IMG/VR virus record: IMGVR_UViG_3300042731_000336
Span: 1 to 24,198 of that record
DNA: 24,198 bases
Direction: 5' to 3' (one strand)
Origin: a virus
Shown: in pieces, positions 16,755 to 21,208 of the stretch
Position numbering within the stretch: position 1 is the first letter of the stretch
Layout: each line of letters starts with the position of its first letter
Program-made: the position numbers and the translations under genes
The notes under the pieces: model-generated
What the model was told of the DNA's origin: nothing
What the model saw: the letters and a program-made list of their open reading frames with translations, nothing else
Databases searched by the model: none

Positions 16755-16762
16755 TATAAATA
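16755..16762 (+). promoter_or_regulatory. T4-type late promoter motif
   Basis: TATAAATA, the full T4 late promoter -10 octamer read by gp55-type sigma, in the 43-base gap before the P-loop kinase gene. No -35 is expected for this class. Start of transcription should be near 16769, just ahead of the CGGAG Shine-Dalgarno at 16776-16780. Confidence 0.65.
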
Positions 16763-16785
16763 ATCTTATCGAACACGGAGTATGT

Positions 16786-17469
16786 ATGTTAACCTTTAAG
16801 TCATTTTTGAATGAAGGGGTCAATGACCCTGCCATCTTCAAGGCAATCTTCCTTGCGGGTGGGCCAGGATCTGGTAAGTCCTTCATCGTCGGTAAGACCG
16901 GACTGACTTCTATGGGTTACAAGGTTGTTAACTCCGACGATGCGTTCGAATCTGCCATGAAGAAGGTTGGTATGGAGATGACTCCGGACAACATTTTCTC
17001 ACCGAAGGGTCAAGAACTTCGTGGTAAGGCAAAGAAACTAACTGGCAAGAAAGAAGAGCGTTACCTGAAGGGACGCCTTGGTCTTGTCGTAGACGGTACT
17101 GGTAAAGATCCAGACAAAATCGCAGCACAGGCACAGAAGGTTAAAGATCTAGGTTACGATGTCGCAATGATATTCGTCAACACAGACCTAGACACTGCAT
17201 TACAACGTAACCGTATGCGTGCCCGTTCACTCCCTGACAAAGAAGTCGAATCGTATTGGAAGGCGGTACAGGCCAATACGGGTAAGTTCCAGCAGATGTT
17301 TGGAAAACAAAACTTCTTGGTGGTGGACAACTCCGAAGGTAAAGATTATAATCAAGAAACCCTACGCGCATATCGCGATGCAAAGAAATTCACTAACGGT
17401 CCACACTCTGCGAAGGCAAAGCGTTGGATTGAGGTGGAGAAGCAGGCAATCAAGAGGGTGAAGGGCTAG
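16786..17469 (+). CDS. Zeta-toxin-like P-loop kinase with a capsid-targeting-like N-terminus
   Basis: A 227-residue ATP-dependent kinase-like protein. Walker A is AGGPGSGKS (24-32). VVNSDDAF (47-54) and VVDGTG (101-106) match the pattern of zeta toxins and polynucleotide-kinase-like enzymes, and RNRMRAR (141-147) is a likely lid with phosphate-binding arginines. The first ten residues, MLTFKSFLNE, followed by Gly, resemble the T4 capsid-targeting sequence (MKTYQEFIAE in internal protein III). They end with L-x-E, the consensus of the gp21 prohead protease. With the late promoter just upstream, this suggests an enzyme packaged in the head and delivered with the DNA. Substrate unknown. Start backed by CGGAG at 16776-16780; a terminator lies about 100 bases downstream. 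Confidence 0.8.
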   Translation: MLTFKSFLNEGVNDPAIFKAIFLAGGPGSGKSFIVGKTGLTSMGYKVVNSDDAFESAMKKVGMEMTPDNIFSPKGQELRGKAKKLTGKKEERYLKGRLGLVVDGTGKDPDKIAAQAQKVKDLGYDVAMIFVNTDLDTALQRNRMRARSLPDKEVESYWKAVQANTGKFQQMFGKQNFLVVDNSEGKDYNQETLRAYRDAKKFTNGPHSAKAKRWIEVEKQAIKRVKG

Positions 17470-17567
17470 TAAGGTTTAGTGACCTATAGTGATGAGTTTG
17501 TCATACAGAGGCGACTAAATTAGATTATTAATATTATAGACAAAGTGACATTCGTTATGTCTATTCC

Positions 17568-17595
17568 AAGAGGGACCTTCGGGTCCCTTTTTTTT
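17568..17595 (+). terminator. Strong intrinsic terminator with UUCG loop
   Basis: Stem GGGACC (17572-17577), TTCG tetraloop, GGTCCC (17582-17587), extendable by flanking A-T pairs, followed by eight T residues. It closes the kinase transcript. The gap before it (17470-17567) holds only a TAGACA/TGTCTA inverted repeat near 17537-17563 and no credible ORF. Confidence 0.95.
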
Positions 17596-17606
17596 GGCAA
17601 AAGCCC

Positions 17607-19966: not shown

Positions 19967-21208
19967 ATGAAAAAACGAAACTACTCACCAGAAGACGTGC
20001 GTCGTCTTCAAGGAACGGTGCAGATCGATCATACCCTCGCGAAGATGGGCGCAAAGAAACTGCGACAACTCTTCGAGGATCACGAATACATTAATACCTT
20101 TGGAGCTTACAATGGACAACAGGCAGTCCAACACGTCAAGGCCGGACTCAAGGCCATCTATCTCTCAGGGTGGCAAGTTGCCGCGTCTGCGAACTCTCAC
20201 AATGAGGTTTACCCAGATCAGTCTTTGTACGCTGTTGATAGCGTCCCTAACGTTGTCCGCAGTATCAATAATGCCTTCCGACGACAAGACCAAATCGAAT
20301 ATCTTGAGTCTGGAGAAGGATTTGAATTTGCACCTATTATTGCCGATGCTGAGGCAGGATTCGGGGGTGTTCTAAATGCGTATGAACTTGCAAGAAATCT
20401 TATCGAGGCAGGTGCTGCCGCTGTTCACTTCGAAGACCAAGTGGCTGCCGAGAAGAAGTGCGGACACCTTGGAGGAAAGGTTCTTATCCCTACTAGTCAG
20501 GCTATACGCAATCTTAACGCCGCTCGCCTTGCTAGTGACGTTGCTGGCACCGATACTGTTGTTATCGCTCGCACTGACGCCGAGTCTGCGAAACTAATCT
20601 CTAGTAACATCTCAGACATCGATAAACCATTCATTAGGAGATCTGCGCAAGGTAGTGCAGGCTCTATTCAACATCGTACACAGGAAGGATTCTATCAACT
20701 ACAAGAGGGTAGGGGGTTAGAGTTCGGTTGTGTGCGCGGTCAGGCCTACGCAGAATACGCGGACCTTGTTTGGTGTGAAACATCAACACCAGACCTGAAG
20801 GATGCGAAACGTTTTGCGGATGCGGTCAAAGGTGCAGTTCCAGACGCGATGCTCGCGTACAACTGTTCACCATCATTCAACTGGCGCAAGTCAATACCAG
20901 GCGATCAAGAACTAAAAGAGTTCCAGAGAGAACTAGGTCGTATGGGATTCAAGTTCCAGTTTATTACTCTGGCGGGGTTTCACCAGACTAACTATGCAGT
21001 CTTTGATTTCGCGAACCGATACAAAGATGAGGGGATGTATGCTTACAGTTTATTACAGGAGGCAGAGTTCGATGCAGAAGAACGTGGATACACAGGAGCC
21101 AAGCACCAGAGAGAAGTTGGTGTCGGTTATTTCGACGCCATTACTACGACTTTGGGATCTACTTCAACCGCGGCAATGTCTGGTTCGACCGAAGAGGAGC
21201 AGTTCTGA
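19967..21208 (+). CDS. aceA: Isocitrate lyase
   Basis: A 413-residue isocitrate lyase, the glyoxylate-shunt enzyme splitting isocitrate into succinate and glyoxylate; normally a cytoplasmic Mg2+-dependent tetramer. Nearly the whole bacterial AceA sequence is present: AIYLSGWQVAA (63-73), YPDQSLY (82-88), PIIADAEAGFGGVLNAYEL (123-141), HFEDQ (154-158), the signature KKCGH (163-167) with catalytic Cys165, VIARTDAESA, YADLVWCETSTPDL, LAYNCSPSFNW, KFQFITLAGFH and the C-terminal GSTEEEQF. Compared with E. coli AceA (434) only the N-terminus is shorter. No catalytic loss or frameshift is visible. Codons lean to CTT/GCT/GCC more than neighbours, suggesting later acquisition. No malate synthase in the window. 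It has its own promoter and 3' hairpin. Confidence 0.96.
   Translation: MKKRNYSPEDVRRLQGTVQIDHTLAKMGAKKLRQLFEDHEYINTFGAYNGQQAVQHVKAGLKAIYLSGWQVAASANSHNEVYPDQSLYAVDSVPNVVRSINNAFRRQDQIEYLESGEGFEFAPIIADAEAGFGGVLNAYELARNLIEAGAAAVHFEDQVAAEKKCGHLGGKVLIPTSQAIRNLNAARLASDVAGTDTVVIARTDAESAKLISSNISDIDKPFIRRSAQGSAGSIQHRTQEGFYQLQEGRGLEFGCVRGQAYAEYADLVWCETSTPDLKDAKRFADAVKGAVPDAMLAYNCSPSFNWRKSIPGDQELKEFQRELGRMGFKFQFITLAGFHQTNYAVFDFANRYKDEGMYAYSLLQEAEFDAEERGYTGAKHQREVGVGYFDAITTTLGSTSTAAMSGSTEEEQF

Follow-up and report, generated by a model that had tools for sequence, protein, structure and literature searches.

A P-loop kinase of a T4-like marine phage with a predicted capsid-targeting leader

Is the P-loop kinase encoded in this viral DNA carried inside the phage head and delivered to the new host together with the genome? 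The question is raised by the amino-terminus of the protein, which resembles the sequence by which T4 sorts proteins into its prohead, and it was addressed in a stretch of 24,198 nucleotides (positions 1 to 24,198 of IMG/VR record IMGVR_UViG_3300042731_000336, here called the window), in related genomes and in published virion analyses of related cyanophages.

The kinase gene, its promoter and its leader

The kinase reading frame (16786–17469, plus strand) is intact, with an ATG at 16786 and a stop codon at 17467–17469, and encodes 227 amino acids beginning with MLTFKSFLNEGVNDPAIF. The first ten residues, MLTFKSFLNE (16786–16815, plus strand), form a predicted capsid-targeting sequence, with a predicted gp21-type cut after Glu10; the sequence around the cut, marked here and below by a slash, is MLTFKSFLNE/GVNDPAIFKAIFLAGGPGSGKS. 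The predicted mature protein of 217 residues (16816–17469, plus strand) starts with GVNDPA and is identified as a P-loop kinase by Pfam, PHROGs, fold matches, invariant residues and an hhalign alignment to T4 Pnkp.

An exact copy of the T4-type late promoter octamer, TATAAATA (16755–16762, plus strand), is located just upstream, as the original prediction had it, 31 nucleotides 5' of the ATG. By its presence alone the octamer is not significant, since chance gives one match per window and at least one copy was present in 43 of 100 shuffles of the window; it was dropped as stand-alone evidence. Its position is conserved: of 40 distinct upstream regions from kinase homologues, 21 have the octamer 13 to 42 nucleotides ahead of the start (about 0.8 expected), and about half lack a perfect copy. 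In relatives, the octamer also precedes structural genes for neck, sheath, baseplate and head, named here by reading the sequences. The conserved position suggests that the kinase is transcribed late. Immediately 5' of the kinase lies a gp41-type helicase gene. On the other side a likely intrinsic terminator, with a 7-bp stem, a UUCG loop and a T run, was read from the sequence at 17571–17596 (plus strand); the region 17560–17600 has a folding energy of −16.4 kcal/mol (z −3.0), and the terminator is missing from the list of the consensus scan. With a hairpin terminator behind it and an octamer of its own, the kinase thus looks like a single late unit next to replication genes.

In T4 IPIII, the first ten residues are enough for head targeting; within the capsid-targeting sequence, residues 4 and 7 serve targeting and residues 8 and 10 serve processing by gp21 (PMC9026906). 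The leader MLTFKSFLNE agrees with the T4 sequence MKTYQEFIAE at residues 4, 7, 8 and 10, confirming the layout that had been noticed from the sequence. Eighty relatives were taken from IMG/VR and 30 distinct leaders compared. Position 10 is invariant (entropy 0 bits) and positions 8, 4 and 7 have entropies of 0.21, 1.17 and 1.73 bits, respectively, so that positions 4, 8 and 10 are conserved and position 7 less strictly, while the remaining positions drift, with entropies above 2.1 bits. Relatives with leaders of different length still have the cut site (ILKFSSWINQLDE/G, MKNFSQFLESPLDE/G and MKTFAELQE/G). The EG pair and D14, next to the kinase core, are conserved too.

The leader on other proteins, including virion proteins of relatives

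A strict leader pattern, M..[FY]..[FYHLWM][LIV].E, was used for searches; its positions were taken from the T4 literature, while the residue sets allowed were our choice, made after the first homologues had been seen. In the window it matches once, in the kinase, against 0.016 matches expected. Contig G008 is 99.994% identical to the window over 16.9 kb and is therefore the same virus, so its leader proteins belong to the genome of the kinase. It contains three strict leaders in addition to that of the kinase, MENFGEFITE on a DUF6267 protein and MKKFKQYVEE and MISFKTYLDE on two other proteins, plus looser ones, among them the near-match MIKNFSQYLVEE of a cytidylyltransferase. The earlier statement that the kinase is the only protein here with such a leader thus holds for the window and fails for the genome, where the search for the same ten-residue leader on other proteins found these three. 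Across genomes, the pattern matches five times each in G001 and G003, four times in G008, three times in G004 and once in G005, with 0.07 to 0.16 matches expected per genome when the rate inside proteins is taken as baseline. In HTVC008M it has no matches, the leaders there being shorter; the kinase leaders of both HTVC008M and Melnitz are short and fall outside the pattern. With a looser pattern, false positives come in and the S-SCSM1 signal described below is lost. In HTVC008M and in G005, a direct neighbour of the kinase gene encodes an NMNAT-like cytidylyltransferase, a family also seen in virions.

The DUF6267 leader protein (L105 11775–12995 and G008 44632–45852, both minus strand) contains the ligase-like motifs KWDG and EGYVAID. 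A ligase assignment was not confirmed, as hhalign to T4 Rnl2, a PDB profile search and Foldseek with a poor model returned nothing. In T4 itself, the strict pattern matches only ipII, ipIII and gp61.1. The last of these (L217 18966–19130), a protein of 54 amino acids (MKTFKEFIKEDMVAGD), is possibly an unrecognised internal head protein.

Virion mass spectrometry is available for two T4-like cyanophages, S-SCSM1 (PMC9602691, with GenBank labels) and S-CREM2 (PMC10665884, Table 3). The single strict leader gene of S-SCSM1 encodes an NMNAT-like protein (MKSFLQFLKE/A) that was detected in the virion (PMC9602691). The three strict leader genes of S-CREM2 encode a SAM hydrolase (MKDFDSFLEE), an APH/ChoK-like kinase (VKRFDAFLTE) and a cytidylyltransferase (MKNFSSFLTE/A), all virion-detected according to the table (PMC10665884). 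For the two phages together, these sources place four of four strict leader genes in the virion, against 99 of 412 called genes; taken apart, the phages give Fisher p values of 0.2 and 0.027, to be read with the small sample of four genes in mind. Both papers allow for contamination, and the parts of them available to us do not discuss leaders (PMC9602691, PMC10665884). In the open-access literature, we found no report of virion proteomics for a zeta-type kinase and none that describes virion enzymes of cyanophages as having capsid-targeting sequences.

Two further features of these virions may be mentioned. ORF12 of S-CREM2 (L132 7704–10313, minus strand), listed as a virion-detected Cas9-like nuclease (PMC10665884), contains the CTS-like stretch LRFASFMAE/A about 17 residues in, and its annotated start may be too early. 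S-CREM2 ORF160 (L124 38342–39235) and S-SCSM1 ORF97 (L126 11973–12158), both recorded as virion proteins in these sources, have in common a stretch like GFTG..A.EGP.AGYDPLM, which recurs in the major capsid protein of S-CREM2, just past its predicted cut.

A search for a gp21 homologue was successful: four kinase-bearing relatives have homologues of gp20, gp21, gp22 and gp23, the window and G008 being fragments. LxE sites are found in these relatives in gp21 (CIVE/A), in gp22 (TLEE/A) and near the expected site of gp23 (FLTE/T and LLSE/A). This makes the prohead machinery and its cut specificity plausible for the group.

Because the leader is common to unrelated proteins of the virus and to virion enzymes of related phages, it is probable that the phage packages the kinase and injects it along with its genome. 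The reading we favour, and regard as fairly probable, is that the P-loop kinase of this T4-like (Kyanoviridae-type) marine phage is made late, packaged in the head, processed by the prohead protease and ejected with the DNA. It would be an internal head protein whose residues 1–10 attach it to the prohead core, Phe4 and Phe7 providing the contact. A gp21-type prohead protease would then cut after Glu10, the mature 217-residue kinase would remain with the packaged DNA inside the head, and upon ejection into a new host along with that DNA it would at once phosphorylate a target. Of the head loading that had been predicted, targeting and gp21-type cutting are backed by conservation of the specific leader residues, by the shared leader, by gp21, gp22 and gp23 in relatives and, to the extent that the two proteomic sources cover it, by leader proteins in the virions of relatives, while ejection and the target are proposed by analogy with T4.

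The main alternative, which we consider unlikely, accepts that the leader targets the prohead core and has the kinase serve head assembly or maturation, or travel as a passive passenger, with no effect in a new host. T4 IPIII does have a role in head morphogenesis (PMC9026906), and none of the computations shows ejection. Against a role in assembly only, T4 Alt and the internal proteins are ejected (PMC9026906), the S-CREM2 virion enzymes with leaders, as listed in the source (SAM hydrolase, APH-like kinase and cytidylyltransferase), look host-directed, and the catalytic residues of the kinase are invariant, which argues that its activity is under selection.

Fold and candidate substrates of the kinase

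The P-loop residues K31 and S32, the aspartates of the NSDD motif and the lid arginines R141 and R145 are invariant in the homologues. In an hhalign comparison based on shallow alignments, the invariant K31, S32, D51, R141 and R145 line up with T4 Pnkp, whose catalytic set we take to be the P-loop Lys and Ser, Asp35 and the lid Arg, with Arg38 binding substrate; Arg38 is not evidently kept. The structure model is mediocre (pLDDT 69). Among solved structures, it is matched best by phosphoseryl-tRNA kinase (Z 7.8), a bacterial polynucleotide kinase (Z 7.6) and zeta toxin (Z 6.3), all with Z below 8, a range that may mean a common fold only. The fold and the conserved catalytic residues point to an enzyme of the polynucleotide kinase, phosphoseryl-tRNA kinase or zeta type, so the candidate substrates are the ends of RNA or DNA, groups linked to tRNA, and small metabolites.

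A toxin of the zeta type phosphorylating UDP-N-acetylglucosamine, whether brought in by the phage head or synthesised late in the infection, would agree with the zeta toxin among the fold matches and with the Pfam match to Zeta_toxin (PF06414, E-value 1e-10, residues 19–191, above the gathering score). However, AAA_33 scores alike, at least as well as Zeta_toxin; polynucleotide kinase and phosphoseryl-tRNA kinase stand higher in the fold ranking; no antitoxin gene was recognised among the neighbours of the kinase, which vary between phages; and PADLOC gave no match. We regard this toxin as rather improbable. The description as zeta-toxin-like names one branch only and is too narrow, given that the modelled protein agrees at least as well with the folds of polynucleotide kinase and phosphoseryl-tRNA kinase. 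A cell-wall precursor appears no more likely as the target than something related to nucleic acid or tRNA.

Distant homologues and known systems

Homologues in Straboviridae have about 21 to 30% identity to the kinase. All seven start with an aromatic leader ending in LxE: MKSFKDFVSLDE/A in RB43, MKSFKQFTESTLTE/A in KP15, MKSFIEYINLDE/A in POP12, MNFREFQQLDE/A in Ci1, MNFKEFCQLDE/A in S13, MTLKSFKEFITLDE/A in Mm5 and MKMKFSEFVQLEE/K in CC2. The octamer NATAAATA is located just 5' of the gene in six of the seven, and several of the genes adjoin hoc. Since the sequence after the cut in these proteins has no relation to GVNDPAIFKA, conservation of LxE is not merely a need of the kinase core. In gp053 of Atu_ph07 (L084 7275–9611; 778 amino acids), the kinase domain is situated in the middle of the protein, preceded by VTE/G and no leader, while the amino-terminus of the protein is MKWNDLNE/A; the gene is part of a cluster (CDS 31–76) in which many virion proteins are encoded.

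That the leader is an ordinary amino-terminal helix of a cytosolic kinase, resembling the T4 tag by coincidence, is very improbable: the tag is short and degenerate, and EG and D14 are conserved next to the kinase core as well, but the pattern occurs far above chance on unrelated families (DUF6267, cytidylyltransferase and small proteins), LxE is kept by leaders of differing length and, in Straboviridae, ahead of unrelated sequence, and leader-bearing proteins are reported in the virions of relatives in the sources cited above.

Compared with known systems, the packaged-kinase reading has its closest counterparts in T4 IPII and IPIII, which, like the kinase, have a ten-residue leader with aromatics at positions 4 and 7, I or L at 8 and E at 10, a late-type promoter and an LxE cut site. 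The T4 internal proteins are small and basic, IPI being a restriction inhibitor, whereas the cargo here is a P-loop enzyme conserved across phage families. T4 Alt, a head-packaged ADP-ribosyltransferase, is likewise an enzyme that, as proposed for the kinase, is packaged, processed by the prohead protease and then ejected; its fold and chemistry are unrelated and its amino-terminus, MELITELFDE, falls outside the strict pattern. The enzymes listed for the S-CREM2 and S-SCSM1 virions (cytidylyltransferase/NMNAT, SAM hydrolase and APH-like kinase) share the leader pattern and differ in fold. T4 Pnkp, Clostridium thermocellum polynucleotide kinase, archaeal phosphoseryl-tRNA kinase and zeta toxin share the P-loop kinase fold, the conserved Asp after strand 2 and the lid arginines. 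Identities in structure alignments are 12 to 20%, and the phage kinase has the leader and lacks a phosphatase domain.

The T4 literature already suggests capsid-targeting sequences on diverse proteins of related phages (PMC9026906). As far as the open-access literature shows, what is new is the tagged kinase in Kyanoviridae-type and Straboviridae phages, the set of leader proteins in a marine virus and, within the accessible parts of the proteomic sources, the matching of the tag to cyanophage virion enzymes. The T4 packaging tag is thereby extended to a kinase conserved in two phage families and tied to cyanophage particle enzymes that, in those sources, were unexplained or caveated as contamination. 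There is perhaps an even chance that marine and other T4-like phages generally use the ten-residue leader as a sorting code, readable from sequence, by which a set of unrelated enzymes is loaded into the head and delivered with the DNA: the kinase, the NMNAT-like cytidylyltransferase, the DUF6267 protein, the SAM hydrolase, the APH-like kinase and possibly the Cas9-like nuclease. In that case, genomes alone would suffice to predict which proteins uncultured viruses inject. If the proposal for the kinase is right, the sequence of a T4-like phage would reveal which proteins it injects at time zero, and the function of the kinase would be directly testable in cultured relatives.

Further along the window, a reading frame at 19967–21208 (plus strand) encodes an isocitrate lyase homologue (PF00463, E-value 2.9e-95) that contains KKCGHLGGKVLIPT, a stretch resembling the active site; it may be an auxiliary metabolic gene.
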